From Mesostigma viride (lineage: Eukaryota > Streptophyta > Mesostigmatophyceae > Mesostigmatales > Mesostigmataceae), in the NCBI GenBank assembly GCA_009746045.1, contig RPFO01000090.1:1228025-1292024 (forward strand): DNA of 64,000 bases. Reading direction: 5' to 3'. Positions 478 through 64,000 of this stretch are shown one piece after another. Within the stretch, counting starts at the first letter, position 1. Each line of letters opens with the position of its first letter. A program made the position numbers and the translations under genes. The notes below the pieces were generated by a model that made no database searches, was not told where the DNA came from, and saw only the letters and a list, made by a program, of their open reading frames with translations.

Positions 478-3400
478 GTGAACCTCAGCCGCATCTTTCC
501 GGCGGGCGCGCGCGTCGACTCCGGTAAGTGTGTACACATGCCCACCATGTCACTACGATATCTTATTAGTATCAGTTTCTTATCAGTATTAGGTACACCC
601 TGTTTACAATACTCTATACATGTAGCTTGCGTCGGTCCTATTGACTTCAAAATTATGTGTGGAAGTTAACGTTACTCTTTTGGTCTTCATGCATTCGACA
701 GGCAGTGCTCCGCCCCCCCCGGATGTTGGCGAATTTTTTTAAAGAAAAATAAAAACCCAATAGGATTTCTTAGACAGTTATATAATTTATCCTAAACTGT
801 GAAGCCTTGCCCTAGTGGGCTGCTTGTGCCCTGATTCACATAACCTTGGCATACGCAGGGCTCCCTAATAAAACATCCGAAAATGATAACTTAGCATGCA
901 TACAAGCATGCCTAGTCACAATAGGAGGTTACAAAACATAGTACGCAGCACTCGTAGGCTGTGTAGCTCACATTAGCTCACCCATACATTATTGGCGTGA
1001 CCTCACACGATGCCGCCTTTGGGTTTGCATGCACCCTACACCCATAGGCCGTTGGAAGTTGGTAAAGCTAGTATACCTAGGGAGACCCGGGTTCCTCTGT
1101 AAAACTGAGGACCAGGTTCTTCGTCACCGCTAGCTAGTGCCATCTTGGCTTTCGTCGGGCATGGATTTCAGGCTGGGCGTGCGCTGAGCCACCTGCATCG
1201 CCCTCCTCTACGGCACCCTCATCCCCATTCCTCCTTATCAGTGTCGTCCCCTTCTAACTCGTTGCCTGCCTGCGCCTGGTGTGTAACGACCGTGCCCAAA
1301 GCCCGCCGACCTCTCGTATTGCCGGCCAAGGCTAAAACGCCACCACCTCATGTGAAATGGTCCTTGAATTTGTAGCCCAGGGGAATCGGGGGCTCTTTCT
1401 TCTTCGTTGTGATTCGCTTCTCTAGCGCACTATTGAAAAATGTAGGATTAGAAAACACACAAAACGAAGTCAGCTGGCACGACTGCGGTGAACTTCATGC
1501 AACGTTTTGTGGCTCAGCACCTTCGTGTTGCGTACCTACTGCAGGTCTGCAGCGCATTTGTTACCCGCTCAAGTCTACGCATTTGACAGACTGGACTTTC
1601 CGGCTGCCCAGTGCTGACCCCATTCGTTGTACAGGGTCAGAGCTGCACCGCGCCACGCCTTTTGCTACTAGGGTACAGAACATCGATTTACTCACAAGTT
1701 GAAGTTGAAACTTTGGCCCCTCCTCTACAGTTGCAGTTAGCACGTCCAACAGCAGTCTAGTACACCAAATCTCTGCTGCCCATTGCGGCGTGGCAACAAC
1801 AACAACAACGACAACAACAACAAGATTTGTGCTGGTCAAGCTCACACCGGTATTCAAGTGGGCAACAACGACAACCGAGTCGCGAGGGAGCTATGATTGT
1901 GCAAAATCGCCTAGCCTTGACGAGCCGTTGCCCATGATTATTTTTTAATTACTGCGTCTGAGGGTCACGCACTACTACTTTAACCTCATCAGCAAGGTAT
2001 GTTGTAGCTACGATAGGACCGTCGCGAGATTCCATGCCCTGGCGCACTGGTTCTCGTCGGGCATTCAGCAGGGCTCTGCTGTGTCGGCATTTAAACTCGG
2101 TGGAGGTGTTAGCATGGCAGCAATCTGCAAACTATTTGTAAGTGCCGGGAATAGTAACATATACTAATCGAAATTGATATTTTGTAATAGTCAGTATATA
2201 AGTACCGGGTCTGTCTGACGGGGAAACCGGGGAACCCCGGCCGGCATTTAAACTAGCATGGCTTACCGGTCGAACGGGGGGGGGGGGTTCCTGCCCTGAA
2301 CCCAGCATACCGGTCGGCCGGGGGGGGTTTCTTGCTTGGCATATAGCATACCGGTCGGCCGGGGGGGGGTTCCTGCTTGGCATATAGCACACCGGTCGGC
2401 CGGGGGGGGCTTACCGGTCGGCCGGGGGGGCACCGGTAATTACCGGAGAATTACCGGAACCGGTGCGTTAGCAGAAAGACTGTTGACAGGGCCACGGAAC
2501 GTACCTCTTTTGTCACATTCTCAGGTTCTCAACACAGACCACAACTACTTGCTTTCTTTCATGTGTAAGGGCTCTCTTTCCCCAGTTTTATTATCACTTC
2601 CACGCGGACCCTGCGGCGTTGGTACATGACCTCCCCTAGGGTGTTAACATATTCCTTCTTCATGGGGTCCAAATGTCTTGTATTGTTTTACCATTTCTCG
2701 TTTCATCATTCAGCATCTCATAATGTATTTTCAATTGCTTTGCTGTCACTTGTTTCATTCTCTCTCGCCTCAACGCCCCCCCCCCTGCCAGGCAACTACG
2801 ACCCAATCGCTGCCTGGAACGTTGGCTGCCAGATCGTCGCCCTCAACTACCAGACGCCGGGCGCGCCCATGCACCTCAACCACGGCCGCTTCCTGGACAA
2901 CGGAGGGAGCGGGTATGTGCTCAAGCCGCCCTTCCTGCGGGGTCCCTCGGGGCCCGACAGCCGCCCCCTGCAGGGCCCCGTGCCCTGCACCGTCATCCTG
3001 TCCGTCCTCTCAGCGACCAACCTCCCGCCGCCTGGGTCCGGCCGCAGTAAAGGGGAGACGATCGATCCGTTTGTCAAGGTGTCGGTGCGCGGCGCCCCCG
3101 AGGACGAGGCGGAGTTTGAGACCAAGATGGTCGAGAACAACGGGTTTGACCCCGTGTTCAACGCGGCCCCGCACGTGTTCCAGCTGGCGAAGCCCGAGCT
3201 GGCGATGCTCTACCTACGGGTGAGTGGTCAATTTAGGCTTCAAATAATAGTGCTAATCTATATTATTATTACTACTATTATTGTTATTTTCGAGAAAAAT
3301 AGTGATTCGTTGAGGACGATGAAAGGCATGGTTGACAAACGCCAAGCAAACCTGAGCTGGCGCCTGGCGATGATGTACTGGCAGGTGACTTGTTTAGTTT

Positions 3401-3676
3401 CATGTCAATCAGTTGCATTATCAAAACAGCTCACCGGATGCTTGTTGAGGACATGCCTGACCCTGTGATTATCTTTATTCGCCCACTGGCCCTAACACCC
3501 CCACATCGTTTTGTGGCCATGGCTGGGTTACTTGAACCGCGCCTTGGGGGCATGTGTTAGGTAATCGTGGTTCTCTGAACATAGTTTCTTGATTAGTGAA
3601 TGGAAAGATAGCTGCTACAGGTGAGCTGGCACTGGCCATGGACGCATCGTGGTATGCCTTCAGTGCATATCCACTT

Positions 3677-7731: not shown

Positions 7732-8109
7732 TTGGGCACAGCCTTTATAAACAAGCCCCTTTCCATCCTCATGTCGCACCGTGCGAGCATGATCAGGATG
7801 CAAGGTCGCCAGGCACGCCACGGTCAACCTTCCCGCCAATTTACCAGCCTTACACGCCTCCTAGCCCGCCTTGAGCGGGATGAGGCCCAGTCGACACGCC
7901 GGCGACCCCAGCCAGGACGGAGACGACGCATATCCGTCCTGAAAGAAAGCCTCCATGCGTTGACAAGCATTAACCCCAATCGCCACCCTCCCCCTCCCCC
8001 CCCCCCCACCCCCACCCCCACCTCCAGCACTACCCTTCTCCACCCCCACCCCCACCCCCACCCCCCCGCTAATAGGGCAACGGCCCATTCTTGGTATTGC
8101 AAGTTTTAA
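7732..8109 (+). CDS. LINE 5' open frame, arginine-rich then proline-rich (possible ORF1 or N-terminal part)
   Basis: This 125-residue frame starts at ATG 7732. Residues about 20-65 are arginine-rich (TRRRPQPGRRRR), and a Pro/Thr/His run follows from a (CCCCCA)n tract. It ends with TAA at the point where the endonuclease frame, one base over, reads ASFNVRTL. An indel in the C-run at 7990-8060 could have separated one original reading frame into two. It could equally be a short ORF1 or non-coding 5' UTR. Confidence 0.45.
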   Translation: MGTAFINKPLSILMSHRASMIRMQGRQARHGQPSRQFTSLTRLLARLERDEAQSTRRRPQPGRRRRISVLKESLHALTSINPNRHPPPPPPPTPTPTSSTTLLHPHPHPHPPANRATAHSWYCKF

Positions 8110-11100
8110 CGTGCGCACCCTCCCTGCAGATCCTTCTACGAGCGGCGGCACCCCAGCACGCCAACGCGTCGACGAGCTGATCGCCCTGTGCGCCGACAAC
8201 AAGATCGCTGTTCTTGGAGTCCAGGAGCACCGACGCACCGTTGACCCTCAGCACGCGGTCAACGGTCTGCTGGTCGACGACCTGCGTGCAGGCTGGCGGT
8301 TCCACTATGGTGGCGGCGACGCGCCGGGCCAAGGTGGTGTGGGCCTCTTGTGCTCGCCGGCAGCATCAGAGCAGCTCCAGTCCATCGTGCTGCGGTCCCC
8401 GCGTGTGCTAGTGGCCACTTTTTCGGCCACTGAGGGCCATTCACACCACACGCTAACCGTTATCGTGGGATATGCACCACATGCGGGTCGAGCTCAGGCG
8501 GAACGTGAGGCCTTCTTCGACGCCCTCAAGGAGGAGGAGGCCAACATCCCAGCTCGGCACTTCCTGGTTATGCTGCTCGACGCCAACGCCACGCTGCCAG
8601 TTGGCACTGGGGGCGCTCAGTATTCCCCAACCAACACGACAGCCAACGGTAACACGCCTTTATTTGCGAATCTGCTGGCAGAATCTGCGCTGGTTGCATG
8701 CAATGCTTCTTTCGCACGCCCCGCTGAGCAGCTGGCCACCTTTTTTGGGCCGTCGGATCGGGTGGTGTGCCTTGATTATGTCTGCGTACGTCGGGCTCAG
8801 CGCCCCTCAGTTGTCGATGCTCGCGTCCTGCAAGATTCTGTCAGCACGGTGGAATCTGATCATCGTCTCGTGCTCGCTCGCATCAGATTGCGGTTTCCTG
8901 GGGTGAAACCGTCGCGACAGCTGGCACCTCAGCCAGATCTGAAAGTGCTCCGGATTGTGCTGAAGGATGCCGACAAGATGTCAGCAGCAGAGCAGGCCGC
9001 TATGTCGCACAGGGATGATTTCCTGGCCGTATTCGACGCCGGGGGCAGCCGACAGCAGTTACACGCCATTCCGCCGCCGGGGGATATTTCAGTGATCCTC
9101 CGTGGTGTCGCCGCCAAGTATCGCCTGGCTGCCCGCACCCTCCCCACCTTGCCTCCGCGTCGGCAGCTTGCTGTCCACCGTCACGCACCGACAGTGGTCG
9201 CCGCCAGGCAGATGCTCCGCCGCAACAGAGATCCGATCGCCAAACCTGGGCTGCAAGCAGCTCTGAGGGCCGCCTACGAGCAGGCTGAGAAGGCAGATGC
9301 TCAGCAGATGGTCAAGGACCTGCGCAGCTGCCAGCAGAAGCACGACGGCAAGGGGGCCTGGTTCTGGTACAAGCGCCTCGGGCACCCGGACGGCCTCGGC
9401 CGGCCCCACCGCCACGACGTCCCCGGCGCCCCAGCCAAGCGGCTTCGTACCTGGGCCACGGCCACGGCCGAGGTCGTGGGGACAGCTGCGCCGCCCCCAC
9501 CCCTGCTCCCAGCCGCCGCCGCCCGCCCGGCCGCCCTGGCCGGCCCCGCTGGGCCCCCTGCCCCGCCTAGGTCAGCGGCGGACTACCTAGTCCCCCCGCT
9601 GGTCGGCCCACTTGGCGACCCGTCTGACATGCCTCCTTTCACCTCTCGCGAGGTCACGGAGGCGGTCCAGCGCCTGCGTTATGACGCAGCCACCGGCTCT
9701 GACGAGATTCCGGCCGCAGTTGTAAAACTTGCAGCCGAATTCGAGGACACAGGTGTTATGCTGCTCTTCCGGGACATCTGCAACCGCCTTCTGCTGTCGT
9801 CGCAACCACCTCCAGCGGCCTGGCAACACAGTTTTCGCACGATGCTGTACAAGAACAAGGGGTCGCCTGCCGACCCCGGCAACTACAGAGGGGTGTGCAT
9901 TCAAAGTGCCCCCCTCAAGCTTCTTATGCGGCTCATCCTGAACCGCCTGCGCACGGCCCTGGACGGTCACCTCAGCGAGACTCAGCACGGCTTCCGTTCA
10001 GGTCGCAACACAGTACAGGCGCTCTTCGCTACTCGCCGACTGGTGGAGGAACTGCAACGCCTTCAGCCTGGTGAGTCCCCTTTGCACCTTGTGCTGGTGG
10101 ACTTCATCAAAGCCTTCGATTCGGTTTTCTGGCCTGCGCTTTGGGACATCCTCGAGTTGTTCCGGATCCCCCGCCCCCTGATTGCTGTCATCCGCAACCT
10201 GTATGAAGGGTCCACCACTTCGGTGCGCACTTCTTACGGGACCACGCCCCCATGCCCTTTACAGAAGGGTGTGTGGCAGGGCTGCGTGCTGTCGCCCTAC
10301 CTGTTCATTATTGTTGTCGAATACGTAATGATTCAGGCGCGCAAGCGATTTGCCCGCATCGTGGGCAGGGAACCAGGAGTGCAGGTTGCTAACAAATTCT
10401 GGCATGGCGGTGCGGACACGGAGATTCGGCTAGCAGACATCATTTACGCAGACGACACCACCCTCTTCGAGGACACTGAGCACGTGCAGACATGGCTTGA
10501 CTGCCTGGCTCTCGAGGCCCGTGCAGTGGGGCTTGAGGTCAGCAAGAAGACAGAGGCCCTGGCGGTTGGGCTCACCAACTCACCGCCGCCCCTCTATCTC
10601 CTAGACGGCTCTCGAGTCCTGTATCGGGACCGCGTTAAGCTGCTGGGCAGCCTGCTCCCCAGCTGCGAGGTTGATGTGGACCATCGCATCTCCCTCGCCT
10701 GGCACGCTTTACGTCAGTACCGGGCCCTGTGGCGCAAGCCCCTGGGCAAGATCGAGAAACAGGACCTGTTCAAGGTCCTCGTCCTTCCTGTTCTCACGTA
10801 TGGCGCCGAGACGTGGACCCTCACCGCCGACCTGGCCCGCAAGCTGGACGGCGCGGTCACCAGCATGCTGCGTTCCATTTTCAGAGTAGGATATGCTGCT
10901 CATGTCCGCAATGAGGACCTGTACCAGGGCATGCCCTATATCACCAGCACCATTAAGCAACGCCGCCTGCAGCTTGTAGGGCACCTAGCTCGCACCAACC
11001 AGGTAGACACCTCACGTGGCCCCCCCGCAGGACTGCGACCAGCCCAGCCTGGCCGGCACCTCCTGACGTGGGCTGGGCCTAGTGATGTTAGACGCCGCAA

Positions 11101-11272
11101 GGCCCGCACCTTCAAGGAACAGCTAGTAGAGGATATGGGGGGCCTCGGCCTCTCCGTGATTTGGAAGAAGATGATGGACAAGGGCAAGTGGGCCCAGGTC
11201 ATAGAGGACAATGAGCCCCCCCTAGTGGGGAAGCGCCCGCGTGTGCAGCCCCGCGGGAGGCACGCCAGATAG
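7964..11272 (+). CDS. LINE endonuclease-reverse transcriptase polyprotein
   Basis: This protein nicks target DNA and primes reverse transcription from the nick. The frame is open from 7964 (after TGA 7961) but has no in-frame ATG before the endonuclease, so the true start is lost or supplied by a frame change from the 7732 frame. The AP-endonuclease signature runs in order: ASFNVRTL, GVQEHR, VIVGYAPHAG, LDANATL and SDHRLV. A Pro/Ala-rich linker follows, then reverse transcriptase: NYRGVCIQS, HGFRSGRN, DFIKAFDSVFW, GVWQGCVLSPYLF and IIYADDTTLF, with the catalytic YADD intact. The C-terminus carries YGAETWT, LVGHLARTNQVDTS and TWAG segments, as in RTE-like clades. No CCHC zinc knuckle was seen. 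The stop is TAG at 11270-11272. The copy looks intact apart from its start. Confidence 0.92.
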   Translation, partial: QALTPIATLPLPPPPPPPPPPALPFSTPTPTPTPPLIGQRPILGIASFNVRTLPADPSTSGGTPARQRVDELIALCADNKIAVLGVQEHRRTVDPQHAVNGLLVDDLRAGWRFHYGGGDAPGQGGVGLLCSPAASEQLQSIVLRSPRVLVATFSATEGHSHHTLTVIVGYAPHAGRAQAEREAFFDALKEEEANIPARHFLVMLLDANATLPVGTGGAQYSPTNTTANGNTPLFANLLAESALVACNASFARPAEQLATFFGPSDRVVCLDYVCVRRAQRPSVVDARVLQDSVSTVESDHRLVLARIRLRFPGVKPSRQLAPQPDLKVLRIVLKDADKMSAAEQAAMSHRDDFLAVFDAGGSRQQLHAIPPPGDISVILRGVAAKYRLAARTLPTLPPRRQLAVHRHAPTVVAARQMLRRNRDPIAKPGLQAALRAAYEQAEKADAQQMVKDLRSCQQKHDGKGAWFWYKRLGHPDGLGRPHRHDVPGAPAKRLRTWATATAEVVGTAAPPPPLLPAAAARPAALAGPAGPPAPPRSAADYLVPPLVGPLGDPSDMPPFTSREVTEAVQRLRYDAATGSDEIPAAVVKLAAEFEDTGVMLLFRDICNRLLLSSQPPPAAWQHSFRTMLYKNKGSPADPGNYRGVCIQSAPLKLLMRLILNRLRTALDGHLSETQHGFRSGRNTVQALFATRRLVEELQRLQPGESPLHLVLVDFIKAFDSVFWPALWDILELFRIPRPLIAVIRNLYEGSTTSVRTSYGTTPPCPLQKGVWQGCVLSPYLFIIVVEYVMIQARKRFARIVGREPGVQVANKFWHGGADTEIRLADIIYADDTTLFEDTEHVQTWLDCLALEARAVGLEVSKKTEALAVGLTNSPPPLYLLDGSRVLYRDRVKLLGSLLPSCEVDVDHRISLAWHALRQYRALWRKPLGKIEKQDLFKVLVLPVLTYGAETWTLTADLARKLDGAVTSMLRSIFRVGYAAHVRNEDLYQGMPYITSTIKQRRLQLVGHLARTNQVDTSRGPPAGLRPAQPGRHLLTWAGPSDVRRRKARTFKEQLVEDMGGLGLSVIWKKMMDKGKWAQVIEDNEPPLVGKRPRVQPRGRHAR

Positions 11273-23259: not shown

Positions 23260-31530
<8,271 letters not shown>

Positions 31531-56577: not shown

Positions 56578-57918
56578 TCATGAGCTGCCGCAGCAGCTTG
56601 TATACTGAGGCCCCGACAGCATCGCTGGCTTGGTCAAGGCATCGGCAATATTCTCGCTCTCGGGGATCCACCGCCGCTCATCCAACACCGTGGCGGACTC
56701 GGCCAACACAAGGTAATCTAGTTTGGTGGTGGAGGCGAGCGGGTTATTCAGAAACTCCATTATTGACTTGCTATCTGTGCACAGCCGCATGCGGAGCGAC
56801 AGCGCCACGCGGGCCTTATCCGCAAGCCATTGCAAAAGTCTGACGCTGCATGCACATAACACGCATGGTCGACAGAGGAAATGAACGCGCGACACTCCGC
56901 GCGGTTGCTGTCTACCACTACCGGCTGATGGATGCGGCTATACCAGTCGACAAGAGTGGGCTGCCCATGCAGTGGGGCTATCAAGAAAAAAGGTGGCCGC
57001 CTCCCGCGCGCGCAGCTGCGTGATGGTACGCGACTCCAGGTTCGCGTCAGAGTAAATGGTCATTGCCACCGGGCGGGTGATATCAACCCCCCACACGCGC
57101 AGGCCCGGCATGATCGACGCCAAGACTTGCGTCCGAAGATGCTGCGCTCCCATGCCCGCAATTAAGCACGGCGTCGGGCGCAGGCGCGTATAGATGGACA
57201 GGTCGGGTCGCACCGTGCCCGCGAGCCACCCCAGGTCCCCAGCTGGCCGCGCAATTGCGGTCCCGCGGACGCATCCAGCCGCTCAGGCAGCGATTGCGCG
57301 AGCTTGTCCGCGTATTCCTGCTTGCATGGCCGCCATGTCAATGCACCAGCCAACCGGTGTGCGGTGCAAAGTGTAGGTTAGGCCACAGAAAGGGACGGGG
57401 GTGTCGGGGTCCAGCCACAACGTGCGGCTAGTGGGCAAAAGCTTGGCCACAGCGGTTACGAACTGCCGGACCCACGCCCGGGGTCCAATAAGCCGCCAGT
57501 CATCCCCCTGCCATAATTGCATGAACGCGGGCTCGTGTGGGTTGGGTGTGTGGATGTGAAAGAGGTTGCTATCGATGCGAGAAAACACCGCCCCCATGCT
57601 AGCAAAGATGCGTTCAGCCGTCTTGCGAAAGATGATGGGGCTAGACTGCAGGCCCTCCACACCAAGGAGAAGCCGCAAGTACACACACCGCAGCTCCCCC
57701 TGCCATGCACACCAAAGGGACCTTGACCACATACTGTCACCGTGCCAAGCCACACTTCCTCGGCCACTGCATGCCGGGTCGCTATATGGAGAAAGTCCCG
57801 CTGAAAATCTGAGCAGGCCATGGCATAGTCCAAACCCCGATCCAACAGCCCCAAGAACACCGATGTTAACACCCGGCTAGTGGTCTGCGACAGCCCGGGC
57901 GTAAACAATTCCTCCTCC
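56578..57918 (-). pseudogene. Decayed Ty1/copia-like reverse transcriptase-RNase H fragment
   Basis: Minus-strand frames, broken by shifts, show a copia-type order. About 57890-57770 has LDYAMACSDFQRDFLHIA (the RT D-x-x-x-AFL region). About 57640-57560 has SPIIFRKTAERIFASMG and RIDSNLF. About 57515 has LWQGDDWRL in the YxDD position. About 57210-56950 has RPDLSIYTRL and TIYSDANLESRTI (RNase H D). About 56915 has NRAECRAF. About 56800-56650 has TDSKSIMEFLNN and RRWIPESENIADALTKP, the classic copia RNase H end. Several frameshifts are present and no gag or integrase was seen. It is certainly dead. Confidence 0.75.
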
Positions 57919-58065
57919 GACAACTGTCGCGTCTGCGTACCACAATCTCCGGCGCCACCATGGCGGCTGGCCATGCTCAGCTTTGGTAAAACCCAAATGA
58001 GCTGAGCTGACGTGCCTGCCTTAACTGCATGCCTGGTGGGGTGGGCGAGGACCTGTCCCATGATT
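57919..58065 (-). repeat. LTR-like direct repeat, left copy
   Basis: This 147-base segment is repeated at 59227-59373 with about two mismatches in the same orientation. On the minus strand its inner 136 bases (58060-57925) start TGGGACAGG and end CGCGACA, so TG...CA. Confidence 0.85.
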
Positions 58066-59226
58066 AAAGAAAGGAGGGCTCTCAGCCGAGGACAAGGAAC
58101 TGTCCCTCGTGCCTGATGACCACCTTATTGCCTCCCCTGCTGTAGAATACTGCTTTCACAACACACACTTTGCACAGTCTGATGATGAAGCCGCACATGC
58201 GGAATTTATTGAGAAAGTTAATACAATTACAACACGTTGATAGTCTCAATATCGATGCACTCCATGCTCACGAGCCCGCAGTTAGGCAGCGCTCCATGAC
58301 ATGCTACCGGCCTTGCTCCCAAGGAAAGGGAGAAACACGAAGGCCACTAACGAGAGACTCGAAGAGACTACACGCTACGTGAGAGTCCTCTTCGACTATG
58401 AACCAAACCATTCGTCATGCCACACGCATGACACACGCCACACTTGTCAGTCCAGCCAGGAATGCCCAAACTATCTTGCTGCCTGAACCATGCAAATAGA
58501 AACTGCATTCCAGTTGCCGTCCTGGCTTTCTACCACACATGCCAACAAAAGCAGGAAGGCATCCCGACAAATCTAAATTGCTACCCTGTTGCCGATCTCA
58601 TCTCCTAGAGGCTCCGGCATTTCTGTCCCTGGGAATGTCCGGCATTGAGTCACGACCACCAAGGTCGAAGCATAATATCCTTCAAACAATCTGCACGCTC
58701 ACACCTTGCGTGTGAGTGGCCCAGCAAACATTGCTTCTAATCTTTCCTTTCTAGAAGAAATCCCTTTGTAGGGCTGCCAGCGATTTCGCATTCATTCCAG
58801 CGATCTGGCTCCGCACCGCAAATTGTCCTTTTCCATTTTCTGTCCAGTCCTCATAACGTTGACCCGCTATTCTACACCACAAAGACACCTGGCCTGTCAA
58901 TAGCCTCGGCGCTGTTGAAGTCCAGCAGTCCAGCTCCAGCTCCAGCTCCAGCTCCAGCTCCAGCTCCAGCTGTCCACTAACTCGCGTATGATCCTCTCGA
59001 CGCTGCGCACTTGTGCTGCCGTCCGCTCAAGTACGTCAGTGCTGCGCGCCCAGCCGTGCCTGGCCCGGCGCGCGCGCACGTGCACTTTCGTCCGCTCTTA
59101 TGCTGCAAGTGCTAGTGTCCCCCCCCGGTCACTAGCCTTTGTCGAAAATGCGCAGAAAACAAATTCCTTGCGCACGTCACCGGTCTTGTGCATAGTGGGC
59201 GCCCGGATGACATAGCTCGCGTCCGT
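58066..59226. other. Spacer between the two LTR-like repeats, with a CCAGCT microsatellite
   Basis: No gene was recognised. A (CCAGCT)n tract lies at about 58920-58972. The stretch might be LTR or unrelated insertion sequence between the copia-like remnant and the Ty3-like element. Confidence 0.5.
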
Positions 59227-59373
59227 GACAGCTGTCGCGTCTGCGTACCACAATCTCCGGCGCCACCATGGCGGCTGGCCATGCTCAGCTTTGGTAAAAC
59301 CCAAATGAGCTGAGCTGACGTGCCTGCCTTAACTGCATGCCCGGTGGGGTGGGCGAGGACCTGTCCCATGATT
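59227..59373 (-). repeat. LTR-like direct repeat, right copy, beside a polypurine tract
   Basis: This is the second copy of the 147-base segment. On the minus strand it directly follows GCGAGGGGGGAATCA (about 59383-59369), which looks like the polypurine tract priming plus-strand synthesis. It begins TGGGACAGG at 59368, downstream of the Ty3-type pol. It is therefore a good candidate for the start of the 3' LTR of that element. Confidence 0.65.
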
Positions 59374-59399
59374 CCCCCCTCGCTGGCTCTCATGGCTCC

Positions 59400-60290
59400 T
59401 CACATGGCCAGCGACCGTGCCAACACCACAGCAGCTAAGGAAATGGTGACGCTACTGGTTGCGAAACGGGCAGCGACACAAACTGGGCAAAACCACTGGC
59501 CCGCTGGCACGGTGGTGAGCGCTGGCTGCAAGCAGTGCATGTGCCACCCACAATTACAGTGATCACACAGCAACATGGTATCCCCCTGGTCTACGCGATG
59601 GCAAACCTGACACTGTGCGTCCTTGACCCGCCTGGCCGTGTGCGGGGCGAGGTCAGGCAATAAGTTGGGCAACGAACACGGACTGAGGTTGCTTACGTTA
59701 TCGGTGGTGCGACTGCCGTCGACGCCCTCCAAAATGGCGACCCCAGATGGCTTGATGGCGACGATCCGCAAGATGGTCGGCCCCGCAGTCACGTCAAGAG
59801 TGTCGGTCAGCTGCGTGCGGAGAAATACGAACTGCCCCGGACGAAAATGCAGCTGACGGGCCATGTAAGCGCCCCCCCGGCGCTGAGCGTAGCGCAGGGT
59901 ATCTCGGTGCTGGGCGATGAACAAGTTGTTCATGGCGATGGGCATAACCTTGCGGAAAGTAGCCGCCCGTGCGGTCACCTCAGCCAGAAACTGACTGGCG
60001 TTGTCAAACGCCATAGGGGTGGGGTGTGCACTCTGCGCCTCCGTGGGGAGCAAGGGTGCGCGCCCAAACAACAGGAAATACGGGGAGAAACAGGCGAGCG
60101 ACTCCTGGGGTGACATTCGGTAACCCATGGCTATCCACGCCAGTTCACGATCCCACATAGTGAATGATGCTGACTGCAGGCTCCACTTGCGCAAAGCCTG
60201 CTTGACAGTCTGCACCAATCTCTCAGCCAAACCATTGGCCTGAGGATGCTCCGAGAAGTGCGACGGTGATCAATGAGACATGCATCCAAC
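59400..60290 (-). CDS. Integrase C-terminal part with PHD finger
   Basis: The frame continues from the integrase catalytic core. EHPQANGLAERLVQTVKQAL holds the third catalytic acidic residue (E of AER); then come SPYFLLFGRAPLLP and FRPGQFVFLRTQL, the usual GPY-like C-terminal segment. It ends with a C4HC3 PHD finger of about 45 residues: CQVC, then LLCDHCNCGWHMHCL, then PAGQWFCPVC. PHD fingers typically read methylated or unmodified histone H3 tails, so this one may direct integration to certain chromatin. The stop is TGA near 59400. The 5' part from 60290 to 60230 lacks an ATG because the frame enters by a shift. This copy cannot make intact integrase without frame correction. Confidence 0.87.
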
Positions 60291-60927
60291 AATTCCTGAA
60301 ATTCCCCCGAAACTCCCCGCCCTGGTCGGTGACCACCTCCGCGGGGGCGCCAAACCTGGCGATGATGTCGGCGAAGTGCTTGGCGGTGGTGGCGGCCTGC
60401 TTGTCAGCAATGGGGATGAGCTCGACCCACTTGCTAAAACTTTCGACACACACCATGACATACTTGTGGCCATCTGCACTTTCATCAAAGGGCCCACACA
60501 GGTCTACGTGCCAGCGGTAGAAGAGCCCTCTGATGGGTAGGCTCATCAATTCTTTCGCATCGTGGTCCACATTGAACCGGGCCTTCACCCGGGCACACTG
60601 CGCGCAGCGAGCGACGACCTGCGCGACTGTGGCACGCATGCCGTTCCACCAATAAGAGGCGCGCACTAGCGCCAAAGTGCGGTTACCACCCAGGTGGCCA
60701 TACCGCTCATGGGCTTGCTGGACGATGGCGACCCGCTTGTGAGGCGGCGGCACCACCACTTTGCGCTTGCCGATCATTTTGTGGAGGACCCCGGCATCCC
60801 ACGAGTAGGTGACCGCCCTATGTTGCACCCTATTCAACTCAGCGTCACGCTGGGCTGAGGACCAATCAACCGGGGTGGGGTGAGAGCTATCCCTTGGACC
60901 TGCTCCAACACACGCCCATCGAGCCAC
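60223..60927 (-). CDS. Integrase N-terminal part (zinc-binding and catalytic core)
   Basis: It reads WSSAQRDAELNRVQHRAV (the linker after RNase H). Then comes the integrase zinc module, HERYGHLGGNRTLALV with YWWNGMRATVAQ and CAQC, giving H, H, C, C. The catalytic core follows with DLCGPFDESADGHKYV (first Asp) and VVTDQGGEF (second Asp). It overlaps the end of the upstream pol frame by about 90 bases, one frame apart, with the join near a GGG run at 60891-60893. After GGEF the frame is lost near 60306 and sense resumes in other frames (QELLDACLIDHRR, then the downstream frame). Confidence 0.88.
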   Translation of the reverse strand: MARWACVGAGPRDSSHPTPVDWSSAQRDAELNRVQHRAVTYSWDAGVLHKMIGKRKVVVPPPHKRVAIVQQAHERYGHLGGNRTLALVRASYWWNGMRATVAQVVARCAQCARVKARFNVDHDAKELMSLPIRGLFYRWHVDLCGPFDESADGHKYVMVCVESFSKWVELIPIADKQAATTAKHFADIIARFGAPAEVVTDQGGEFRGNFRNCWMHVSLITVALLGASSGQWFG

Positions 60928-63900
60928 ACATCACCCATGTTGCATTCCACTGTGAGATGGCCAACCAACACCACCTGGAGTGCTAGGTATCGTGCCAAGG
61001 TATTGTCAATGTCAAAGGACGGAGAATTACCTTCCTCCAACGCGAGGAGGCCAGCGGCAGGGGTGAAGGGAGAAGGGTGAACTGCATTGCAGCTTGCCGC
61101 AAAGTCTGCGACTGTATACTCGACTGCGCGCCAGTCTGCCTCGGCGTCGGCGTCAGCGAAGCCTGCAGCATTAACAAAAACCACAGACCCAGGCGAGCTC
61201 TCGGCCCCTAGGGCCCGCGCACCAGTGTTGTCAACAGTGGTTGGTAGAGCATACCTGGACAGGACGTCCGCGTTGGAGTGATCCACACCTGGCCGATGGA
61301 CGATTGTCAGGTGGTACTCCTGAATGATCATTGCCCACCGGGCCAGCTTACCCGTGAGTTTGTCGCTGGTCATCAACCACAATAAGGGCTGGTGATCAGT
61401 GACAAGTGTGAACACCCGCCCAAAGAGATATGGCCTGAAGTGCTTGATGGCCCACACAACGGCTAACGCTTCCCCCTCGTAGGAAGAGTACCGACTCTCG
61501 GCAGAGTTGTTACTCCGACTAGCGTACGCGATAACATGCTCGCGCCCCGCATCGTCCTTTTGTGCTAGCACAGCCCCTAGGCCTACCTTGGACCAATCGG
61601 TGTAAAGAATGAAGGGCAGAGCATAGTCGGGGGCGCGTAGGATAGGAGCGGCAGTCAGTTCCTGTTTGATGGTATCGATGGCTCGCTGCTGAGCCGGACC
61701 CCACGCCCAGACATTGCCCTTCTTCAACAACTCAGTCAGGGGTTTGACTTTGGTGCTGAAATTCTGAATATATCCTCGATAATAGCCAGCTAGCCCGAGA
61801 TACGCGCGCACCCCCGAGATGTCGATGGGCACTGCGGCGTTGCTGATGGCTTCCACTTTGGCTGCCTCAGGGGTCCGGCCACCTGGTACAATCTGATGAC
61901 CAAGAAACCCTATGGTCTGTTGGGCGAACTTGCACTTTTCAGGGTGCAGCCGCAGGTTGGCCTTATCTAGGGCGATCCGAACCTGATCGAGGTGAGCTAA
62001 GTGCTGGTCAAATGTCTCGCTAAAGACAATGACATCGTCTATGTAGCAGGCTGCAAATGGCAACCCTGCCAGCACCTGGTCCATGGCACGTTGGAACACC
62101 GCACTAGCGTTGCGATGTCCGAATGGCATGCGAACCCACTCGTACAGACGGGTCCCACCCCAAAAGGCCAGCTTGCGCTGATCTGCCTCTACGACCTTGA
62201 TCTGATGGAAGCCGCTACGCAAATCTAGCGACGACACATACTTGACCTGGGGAGATATTTTATCCAAAACATCATCGACCCGAGGCATGGGGTACCTATC
62301 AACAGGAGTGTGCGCGTTCAGCTGACGCAGGTCAGTGGCCATGCGCATACCTGTCCACTCGCCTGTGATGGTATCCTTCTTGGGTGCGACCACCGTGGCA
62401 GCTGCATAACTGGAGGATGAAGCGCGGATGATCCCAGCTGCCTCTAGCTCTCGACAGTTAGCATCTACGAATTCCAGCTCAGCCAAGCTCAGCCTATGCT
62501 GCCGCCTGAATAAGGGCTGATCCGTATCTAGTGGGACCCCCATGCAGCCCCCGTTGTAGCACCCTAGTTCTTCACTGCTGAAAGCGAAAACTGAGCGTGC
62601 AGAATGCAACCAGTGCTCCATAGCCTTGCGTTGCGTGGCGGTGAGGTGCTCACCTATGGCCCATATGTGAGAGGCAGCAGGATCTGCGACTGCGGCACTC
62701 CTACTGTCGAGACAAGGCCCCCGGACAGCGGCATCGTGGAAAAGGGAAAATGCGGCTACACCGGGTGTGACGCTCACCTGCTGAATGGCACGGACTGCGC
62801 GACCGACCGATTGCTGCAGGGTGGGCGCTCCAGCGAACACCGTGCTGGACAACAAGGACGTCATGAGGATAACGCTCCATAGTTGAAGCAGCCGCGATCT
62901 CCATGGCGACCCAGTGCCGCCGGACGCTGTTGGCCGGACACCAGCCGCGTGGGCACTGACAGGCGGTGGCGGTGTGGGGATATCTCCCCCACCCTGGCGC
63001 ACTTGCATTGCGGCCCGCAGAACATACCCAACCTGGAAGGCTGACATGGCTTGCCCAACGAGAGACCACCTAGTGGCCTCTAAAACCCCCTCAGCGGCGG
63101 ACGCCCCCACATGGAACCCCATGCTCACCTCCCGAAACTCAGCGGGCGGCTGCACCAACAAACCCGTACCGGTGTCCCATACCAAACCCTTGCCCCGGTC
63201 CCTGTAGGCCGATGACCCCTGGTAACTAACCAAGGTGGGAAGAGCGCACATAGGCTTACCTACGTGATTGACGGGCGCGTAAGGGTGCCGATCGGCGACG
63301 TCTACCCGCTGCGTGACCAAATGTGGTGGCAGCGCCACCTCCGCGGGCATGCCGTCGTGCTGTCGTGTGATCGCATCTACCACTGCCTGGATGGTGGTGG
63401 TGAGTGCAAGGTTGGTCCAGAATGCGCGGTACCTGTGGGTGAGCCCGCCCAATCCTGCATTGTCGCACGTGACTGGTGCCCCTAAGATGTCCACGATCTG
63501 GGCCCAGTCCTTCCTCACTACCTCGTGAGGGCTGTCGTCGGCCACCACGTTCTCAAAAAGATACGCTAGTGGCTGGTCCTGCAGCTGCTGCAAGAGTCCA
63601 ACGACTCGAAGCAGATCCCAAAACAACCCGCTCCTAGGATCCGCAAGCCCGCGTCCTACGCCGGCCTGACTCAACCCTTGACATTCCCAGCCCGCGAGGA
63701 CGAGGTCTATCCTCTTGTGCCGCCTCAAAAGGCCTCGCACATGAACCTCCCCAATGGCACGGATATCCTGAGGGCACTCCCCAAAGGGATCTGTCCACGC
63801 AGACGGAGGAAACTGAGATGGATACAGGGCAGACAGCTGGGCACAGTGATGCCTATACACTGCCCGAGCGGTAGGAGACGGCTCTACGGCGATCAACGTG

Positions 63901-64000
63901 TGGCACGTACCGCCTGCAGCGAGAAAGCCAGCCAGCCCCCCTCCCATCCCAGCAAACAATTCTAGCAATACAACCCCTTCGGACAAGACCCGCGACTCTG
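60834..64000 (-). CDS. DNA methyltransferase-reverse transcriptase-RNase H polyprotein (open at its N-terminus)
   Basis: The frame is still open at the window edge, so the protein is N-terminally partial. Numbering is from base 63986. The methyltransferase (about 8-330) has motif I LELFAGMGGGLAGF, the catalytic Cys102 in GWECQGLSQAG (ECQ where PCQ/PCN is usual), LFENVVA (E145), HRYRAFWTNL (motif VIII) and a C-terminal FREVSMGF plus RWSLVGQAMS (motif X-like). LFENVV and HR.R.FW.NL recall the DNMT3 group. A linker with a hydrophobic run at about 366-386 follows. Reverse transcriptase (about 490-720) has RMATDLRQLN, SSLDLRSGFHQIKV (D588), RMPFGHRNASAVFQ and CYIDDVIVF (D650, D651). RNase H has LYTDWSKVGLGAVLAQ (D797), SSYEGEALAVVWAIKHF and LVTDHQPLLW, ending VDHSNADVLSR. 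The catalytic residues are all present. No protease or gag knuckle was recognised. Confidence 0.93.
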   Translation of the reverse strand, partial: ESRVLSEGVVLLELFAGMGGGLAGFLAAGGTCHTLIAVEPSPTARAVYRHHCAQLSALYPSQFPPSAWTDPFGECPQDIRAIGEVHVRGLLRRHKRIDLVLAGWECQGLSQAGVGRGLADPRSGLFWDLLRVVGLLQQLQDQPLAYLFENVVADDSPHEVVRKDWAQIVDILGAPVTCDNAGLGGLTHRYRAFWTNLALTTTIQAVVDAITRQHDGMPAEVALPPHLVTQRVDVADRHPYAPVNHVGKPMCALPTLVSYQGSSAYRDRGKGLVWDTGTGLLVQPPAEFREVSMGFHVGASAAEGVLEATRWSLVGQAMSAFQVGYVLRAAMQVRQGGGDIPTPPPPVSAHAAGVRPTASGGTGSPWRSRLLQLWSVILMTSLLSSTVFAGAPTLQQSVGRAVRAIQQVSVTPGVAAFSLFHDAAVRGPCLDSRSAAVADPAASHIWAIGEHLTATQRKAMEHWLHSARSVFAFSSEELGCYNGGCMGVPLDTDQPLFRRQHRLSLAELEFVDANCRELEAAGIIRASSSSYAAATVVAPKKDTITGEWTGMRMATDLRQLNAHTPVDRYPMPRVDDVLDKISPQVKYVSSLDLRSGFHQIKVVEADQRKLAFWGGTRLYEWVRMPFGHRNASAVFQRAMDQVLAGLPFAACYIDDVIVFSETFDQHLAHLDQVRIALDKANLRLHPEKCKFAQQTIGFLGHQIVPGGRTPEAAKVEAISNAAVPIDISGVRAYLGLAGYYRGYIQNFSTKVKPLTELLKKGNVWAWGPAQQRAIDTIKQELTAAPILRAPDYALPFILYTDWSKVGLGAVLAQKDDAGREHVIAYASRSNNSAESRYSSYEGEALAVVWAIKHFRPYLFGRVFTLVTDHQPLLWLMTSDKLTGKLARWAMIIQEYHLTIVHRPGVDHSNADVLSRYALPTTVDNTGARALGAESSPGSVVFVNAAGFADADAEADWRAVEYTVADFAASCNAVHPSPFTPAAGLLALEEGNSPSFDIDNTLARYLALQVVLVGHLTVECNMGDVWLDGRVLEQVQGIALTPPRLIGPQPSVTLS

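Follow-up and report, generated by a model that had tools for sequence, protein, structure and literature searches.

Why would a retrotransposon carry a DNA methyltransferase of its own? The question is raised by a stretch of 64,000 nucleotides from Mesostigma viride (hereafter the window; contig C1857 from position 1228025, in an assembly of 440 Mb), in which a minus-strand frame at 60834-63998 runs through 1054 codons with zero stops and off the window edge. A preliminary description of this DNA had read the frame as a Ty3/gypsy polyprotein that includes a cytosine-C5 DNA methyltransferase (DNMT), and Pfam bears this out, with matches to DNA_methylase at residues 12-151 (1.8e-10), to the reverse transcriptase (RT) family RVT_1 at 539-703 (9.4e-28) and to RT_RNaseH at 791-895 (2.4e-38). 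The explanation that we favor, with a confidence slightly above even, is that the window holds a 5'-truncated, probably dead copy of an M. viride Ty3/gypsy family with a DNMT3-type DNMT in its pol, that this family has a young and complete sister subfamily, and that the DNMT would methylate the element's own cDNA. The observed part of this explanation comprises the anatomy, the split repeats, the target duplications, the constraint on the DNMT and its likeness to DNMT3, as well as the recent date at which the sister subfamily inserted.

The complete form of the element is found in the sister subfamily (subfamily 2), in the order A1 - gag-like open reading frame (ORF) - ORF2 - B1 - A2 - B2. The split direct repeats A-coding-B-A-B are thus complete in subfamily-2 copies, and the window copy has B1-A2-B2 only. 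The gag-like ORF (615 aa) has no Pfam match, and ORF2 (2074 aa) comprises a zinc knuckle just below the Pfam cut-off, DNMT, RT, RNase H, integrase and a PHD finger. Pol probably also contains a protease region, judging from LDSGA and LLGVD motifs, which are typical of retropepsins, and from low-scoring Pfam matches in the gene model P0001; Pfam reports no protease in the subfamily-2 copy L021. The DNMT lies between this putative protease region and the RT. RT, RNase H and DDE integrase follow the Ty3/gypsy pol order (Pfam), and in place of a tyrosine recombinase, the mark of DIRS elements, which Pfam did not find, there are Integrase_H2C2 and rve. Likewise, Pfam detected no chromodomain, the mark of chromoviruses, at the integrase C-terminus (E up to 0.01 in the window and up to 0.1 in L021), where a PHD finger stands instead. 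The element ends in TGTC...GACA (TG...CA type, as in LTR retrotransposons), and a 4-bp target duplication (CCCA, CATG, GGTT) accompanies three of the four subfamily-2 insertions checked, the fourth, at C998:1.166M, having none; the C998 copy is ~10.7 kb long in tile coordinates. Three complete copies have 1, 3 and 2 mismatches between A1 and A2 over 1135 aligned sites (each alignment with 2 gap columns) and no mismatch between B1 and B2 over 143, which marks these subfamily-2 insertions as very recent. Another copy, L022, retains A1 and B1-A2-B2 with no gag ORF of at least 200 aa in between.

The search for other copies proposed in the preliminary description was productive, as it uncovered these complete elements, with both A1 and A2, and at least 44 places, on many contigs, that match the pol frame over a span starting within or ahead of the DNMT and reaching into the RT (a lower bound, 44 of 3919 candidates having been scored). 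The window's own subfamily (subfamily 1) accounts for 17 matches at 99-100% identity and subfamily 2 for 27 at 76%, and 40 of the 44 matches have no internal stop. These places, together with the same fusion in other green-lineage genera (see below), rule out that the window's frame is the product of a chance fusion or of misassembly, a reading of practically nil probability that can draw only on the frame changes of the window copy. All 27 subfamily-2 matches start at residue 6, and a frame of exactly 2074 aa is present in 13 of the 44 places, all of them in subfamily 2 (13/27); subfamily-1 matches start at residues 1-5 in 5 of 17 places and at residues 62-239 in the other 12. Reading of copies in 25 fetched genomic stretches found the DNMT whole in 11 of 11 subfamily-2 copies (99.7-100% identical to L021), and its 343 residues in a single frame in three of eight subfamily-1 copies (L010, L012, L013). 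The small number of whole DNMT frames suggests that the window's subfamily is decaying, and the DNMT frame of the window copy is among the better-kept ones. In protein searches, the three highest DNMT identities belong to M. viride gene models, namely P0001 (74%), P0154 (67%) and P0160 (62%). P0001 is 99.2% identical over 725 residues to the subfamily-2 ORF2 of this assembly; P0154 and P0160 represent a third Mesostigma DNMT type.

Both profile and predicted-fold comparisons rank DNMT3 as the best match of the DNMT domain (62985-63998, minus strand; pol residues 1-338), above DNMT1, DNMT2 and bacterial enzymes, and on these grounds it is classed as a DNMT3-type catalytic domain. In NCBIfam, all nine members match the broadly defined dcm superfamily, with a score for the window of 44.7 bits, below the cut-off of 100.65, and two other families are each weakly matched by one member. 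Selection was assessed by comparing the two subfamilies. Between the window copy and L021, identity at first, second and third codon positions is 0.76/0.84/0.42 in the DNMT and 0.84/0.91/0.48 in RT-RNase H, compared with 0.71/0.69/0.34 and 0.72/0.75/0.35 in two linkers. The DNMT is therefore under purifying constraint between the subfamilies, weaker than that on the RT and stronger than that on the linkers, and not near neutrality beside a constrained RT, the outcome that the preliminary description had named as fatal to its proposal.

How old the association is can be approached through relatives. A DNMT-directed protein search gave 13 proteins and a DNMT-profile search 46, and from the 1011 proteins of an RT-directed search the best 120 were taken. 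Profiles built for the purpose distinguish two architectures: in A (15 proteins including the window) the DNMT precedes the RT, and in B (14 proteins, e.g., P0003, P0006 and P0099) it follows RNase H and precedes the integrase where present. Named hosts of A are Klebsormidium (P0066), Marchantia (P0058, P0064) and Closterium (P0007, P0085, P0122, P0142); in Haematococcus, a DNMT fragment follows RNase H (P0062) and a DNMT follows a protease (P0008), and the fusion also occurs in many metagenome proteins. The earlier view of such fusions as rare and confined to a few protist and algal lineages thus understates their spread. The motif [YF]xDD is present in the RT of 19 of 24 DNMT-bearing proteins, and P0007, P0058, P0071, P0085 and P0142 lack either the motif or that part of the protein.

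An RT tree was built from 78 of 113 usable rows, the other 35 being DNMT-less and of low rank. All 27 DNMT-bearing rows fall into one clade of 68 (support 100), with proteins of Klebsormidium, Marchantia, Closterium and Haematococcus among its members, and all 14 architecture-B rows lie inside a subclade of 20 (support 99); an upstream DNMT was assessed only for rows with more than 450 residues of their ORF before the RT, which excludes 45 of the 78 (39 of the 68 in the clade). The DNMT tree left out rows with fewer than 200 profile positions (including P0013 and P0022) as well as P0062, P0079 and P0122, and its DNMT3A served as outgroup only, which proves no descent. In paired trees (built without P0062 and P0122, and for the DNMT also without P0079), B forms one side of a branch with support 97/97 for the DNMT (22 rows) and 100/99 for the RT (23 rows, with 2 more as outgroup), 12 architecture-B rows making up one subclade at 100/99. 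DNMT and RT distances are correlated (Mantel r 0.56; 0.76 for A only), none of 9999 permutations being as high in either case, which indicates that the DNMT has mostly travelled with the RT. It has also been lost: P0060, nested in the B subclade, has protease, RT, integrase, PHD finger and 545 residues before the RT, and no DNMT. Thus, a relative without the DNMT exists alongside many with it, a different outcome from the one that the preliminary description had associated with an accidental fusion, i.e., relatives without the DNMT and no other copies carrying it. P0111 and P0070 likewise have no DNMT at the B place. A viral origin was rejected, since two scans of viral contigs gave no match and one locus (L001) at 25% identity, respectively; among prokaryote genomes, none of 115 pattern hits encodes a relative. 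As a separate observation, the metagenome proteins P0009, P0010 and P0134-P0141 (without P0138) group closely together in one clade, and in several of them the ORF stops right after the DNMT, so that the RT would be in the next ORF; P0010, P0137 and P0140 come from contigs of 72-124 kb.

Elements of this kind have been known since 2018, from one charophyte and dinoflagellates, with their use unclear. KnitGypsy-Dnmt3 of Klebsormidium nitens combines a DNMT3 in Pol with Gypsy domains and DIRS-like repeats, the DNMT being under purifying selection (de Mendoza et al., 2018; PMC5890265), and the Mesostigma element shares each of these traits. P0066 (K. nitens, KFL_009030040), which probably is KnitGypsy-Dnmt3 itself, also carries its DNMT before the RT and after a protease-looking stretch. 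The Mesostigma element differs in motif IV (ECQ instead of PCQ), in its RT, which branches off separately and deeply within the same clade, and in an integrase that ends in a PHD finger, the word PHD being absent from the main text of PMC5890265. SymbioDIRS-Dnmt3 of Symbiodinium likewise has a DNMT3-type domain in its Pol frame and split repeats, but is described there with a tyrosine recombinase, whereas the Mesostigma element has a DDE integrase, TG...CA ends and 4-bp target duplications. SymbioLINE-Dnmt, also from Symbiodinium, resembles it in being a retrotransposon with a cytosine DNMT but belongs to another element class, the LINEs, and has an orphan DNMT encoded by an ORF that precedes the one for the RT (PMC5890265). 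The architecture-B metagenome elements (RT - RNase H - DNMT - integrase - PHD) share the RT clade, a homologous DNMT and the same PHD finger, and differ in the place of the DNMT, between RNase H and integrase, and in forming one subclade.

New here are the breadth of the clade, the two places of the DNMT in pol, its loss, and the pairing with a PHD finger. Among the open-licence matches listed, no title or abstract describes such elements in Mesostigma, Marchantia, Closterium or Haematococcus, or a PHD finger with Gypsy integrases. The K. nitens acquisition was called independent in that lineage in the 2018 report (PMC5890265). At the level of the RT, the present tree argues against this, as it joins the K. 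nitens and window elements in a larger group with DNMT-bearing members, the clade of 68 rows (support 100); the deep branches of the DNMT tree are weak, and algal host DNMT3 is absent from the trees. The Mesostigma element suggests that the family is older and more widespread than the 2018 report implied. Other accounts mention that some DNMT3 sit within Copia (LTR) and DIRS retrotransposons in streptophytes and dinoflagellates (PMC12344493) and that no DNMT3 was found in the green algae of MMETSP (PMC9998398). Separately, the Closterium NIES-54 protein P0144, which carries the family DNMT, may be the Copia case mentioned in the former. P0144 is annotated with PF14223, presumably the Copia-type gag domain.

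What the DNMT may do for the element can be proposed as follows. It would be made within Gag-Pol and would enter the particle with RT and integrase, where it could methylate the element's own double-stranded cDNA, such that each new copy would arrive already methylated, probably at CG; the integrase PHD finger may in turn help to choose the chromatin entered. Methylation of cDNA by an element's own DNMT was suggested for DIRS elements, and SymbioDIRS-Dnmt3 was shown to perform de novo CG methylation in a yeast assay (de Mendoza et al., 2018; PMC5890265). The PHD finger is a usual feature of the clade, being present in 36 of the 38 clade members whose integrase is complete and followed by at least 30 residues (P0021 and P0049 lack it) and in 0 of 4 others. 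The closest PDB matches to the window's PHD finger are those of BAZ2B, WSTF, CHD4, Lid and BAZ2A, several of which read unmodified H3K4, like the ADD domain of host DNMT3. Both observations also lend some weight to an unlikely alternative, in which the DNMT would modify host chromatin in trans, where the element inserts or close by, with the integrase-linked PHD finger as its guide, and would silence the target region instead of marking the element's own cDNA. This alternative is weakened by the place of the DNMT in pol, away from the PHD finger and presumably separated from it by cleavage of the polyprotein. As a side observation, the C-terminus of P0004 extends beyond the PHD finger in a stretch with DPWSGSG and FSAW motifs and no Pfam match, which we suppose might be a second methyltransferase-like domain.

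Several findings count against methylation of the element's own cDNA by its DNMT, the explanation that we favor, and some of them invite other readings. Firstly, the catalytic motifs are not all canonical. The preliminary description had taken every one as retained; the motifs it quoted are indeed present and the catalytic cysteine is kept, but motif IV, whose usual form is P-C-Q, reads E-C-Q in both Mesostigma subfamilies (GWECQGLS, 63669-63692, minus strand; Glu at 63684-63686). Glu replaces Pro in 20 of the 53 retrotransposon DNMTs with that column, through at least five changes on the tree, and close sisters such as P0099 (Pro) and P0124 (Glu) differ. Additionally, the KnitGypsy-Dnmt3 domain was negative in the yeast assay, a result called inconclusive by its authors (PMC5890265), though P0066 has PCQ. 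These data could mean that the original chemistry of the DNMT is gone or altered and that the domain persists as a module for binding DNA or RNA, or that it methylates RNA. We consider this rather improbable, since the catalytic Cys is conserved in 52 of 53 sequences, the motif VI Glu in 51 of 54 and each of the motif VIII arginines in 52 of 53, beyond the needs of a binding module, even if rows chosen by similarity bias these counts upwards.

Secondly, constraint on the DNMT is the weaker one. Its NG86 dN is 0.21, compared with 0.11-0.12 for RT-RNase H (between L018 and L021, integrase has 0.12 and PHD 0.15), and dS is saturated (1.2-4.1 or not computable; maximum-likelihood values of 4-13, saturated as well, were not used), which makes omega values of 0.04-0.12 rough and leaves codon-position identity as the main indication of constraint. 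Moreover, five of the eight subfamily-1 copies read have a broken (L014-L017) or partial DNMT (L018, from residue 135 only), and P0060 shows that the DNMT is not needed for transposition in general. A DNMT that was caught by chance and is drifting as a decaying passenger would explain the roughly doubled nonsynonymous rate relative to the RT, the broken copies and the absence from P0060. It would leave unexplained why second codon positions are 84% and third positions 42% identical between subfamilies, why the DNMT is whole in every young-subfamily copy read, why its distances follow those of the RT, and why the broken copies have other pol parts broken too. Constraint contradicts such drift for the family, for which it is very improbable; it may apply to the window's subfamily now. 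Lastly, CpG depletion is no stronger in pol (observed/expected 0.80) than in the window as a whole (0.77). An excess of CpG transitions between copies (summed ratio 2.8 in subfamily 1 and 3.1 in subfamily 2) was discarded as an indicator of methylation, being too weak and based on non-independent pairs without a host control. As for the subfamily-1 copies L014-L018, they are ~99% alike and carry differing breaks of the DNMT frame, which could reflect rapid decay or assembly indel errors.

Retrotransposons normally suffer DNA methylation, and a lineage that carries and conserves a writer enzyme reverses this relation. Tentatively, and with well under an even chance of being right as a whole, the data can be extended to a single old capture of DNMT3 by a Gypsy lineage with split repeats and a PHD finger, at a time when green algae and plants had not yet radiated or had only begun to do so. 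The DNMT would later have moved once in pol and sometimes been lost. DNMT and integrase PHD finger would then form a write-and-place system that delivers pre-methylated copies into chromatin without H3K4 methylation, with ECQ as a functional variant of a near-universal PCQ. The near-identical complete copies of the young Mesostigma subfamily make methylation of own cDNA directly testable, and the RT clade offers natural comparisons, i.e., two DNMT places in pol, absence of the DNMT, and ECQ versus PCQ.

In the window copy, all features of which are on the minus strand, the pol frame contains, after the DNMT, the RT core (RVT_1, 61890-62384), RNase H (RT_RNaseH, 61314-61628; both converted from residue numbers) and the first integrase-region residues. 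The H2C2 zinc finger and the beginning of the DDE core follow in a different frame (60223-60930), and the remaining integrase with the C-terminal PHD finger lies beyond two further frame changes (59400-60269; PF00628 at 59478-59612, residues 220-264 of that frame). tblastn with relatives accordingly places the segments in minus frames 2, 0, 1 and 2, i.e., with three frame changes. A purine-rich tract, GCGAGGGGGG (59374-59383), a possible plus-strand primer, directly precedes B1 (59233-59373), which is followed by A2 (58066-59230; start TGTCACGG, AATAAA inside at 58210, partner A1 missing) and by B2 (57925-58065), the 3' end of the element. B1 and B2 belong to a 147-nt direct repeat (59227-59373 and 57919-58065, ~1.16 kb apart, 2/147 differences), here trimmed to its ...GCGACA end; its origin from a small nested element is ruled out by the complete copies, which show B1-A2-B2 together with a 5' A1. 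On the other side, the window copy matches four other copies up to ~64947 in window coordinates, ~950 bases past the window edge and with one further frame change in this part, and then no more; no gag and no A1 turned up in the 7 kb that follow, to C1857:1300000. The copy is thus 5'-truncated just outside the window and, having a broken integrase as well, is probably dead. Copy L012 on C269 has the same frame pattern.

Several minor features complete the picture of the window, in which Rfam has no match. A perfect 6-nt tandem repeat of 7.2 copies lies within A2 (58929-58971), and a 222-aa minus-strand frame without a Pfam match (57456-58124) spans the end of A2, B2 and the 3' flank. Outside the element, another minus-strand frame of 197 aa (57283-57876) also has no Pfam match. 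Further away, on the plus strand, are an open LINE-like ORF of 1102 aa with endonuclease and reverse transcriptase domains (7964-11272) and two likely pieces of host genes, for a phosphoinositide phospholipase C (Y and C2 domains; 2569-3468) and for a LysM-domain protein (26105-26710).

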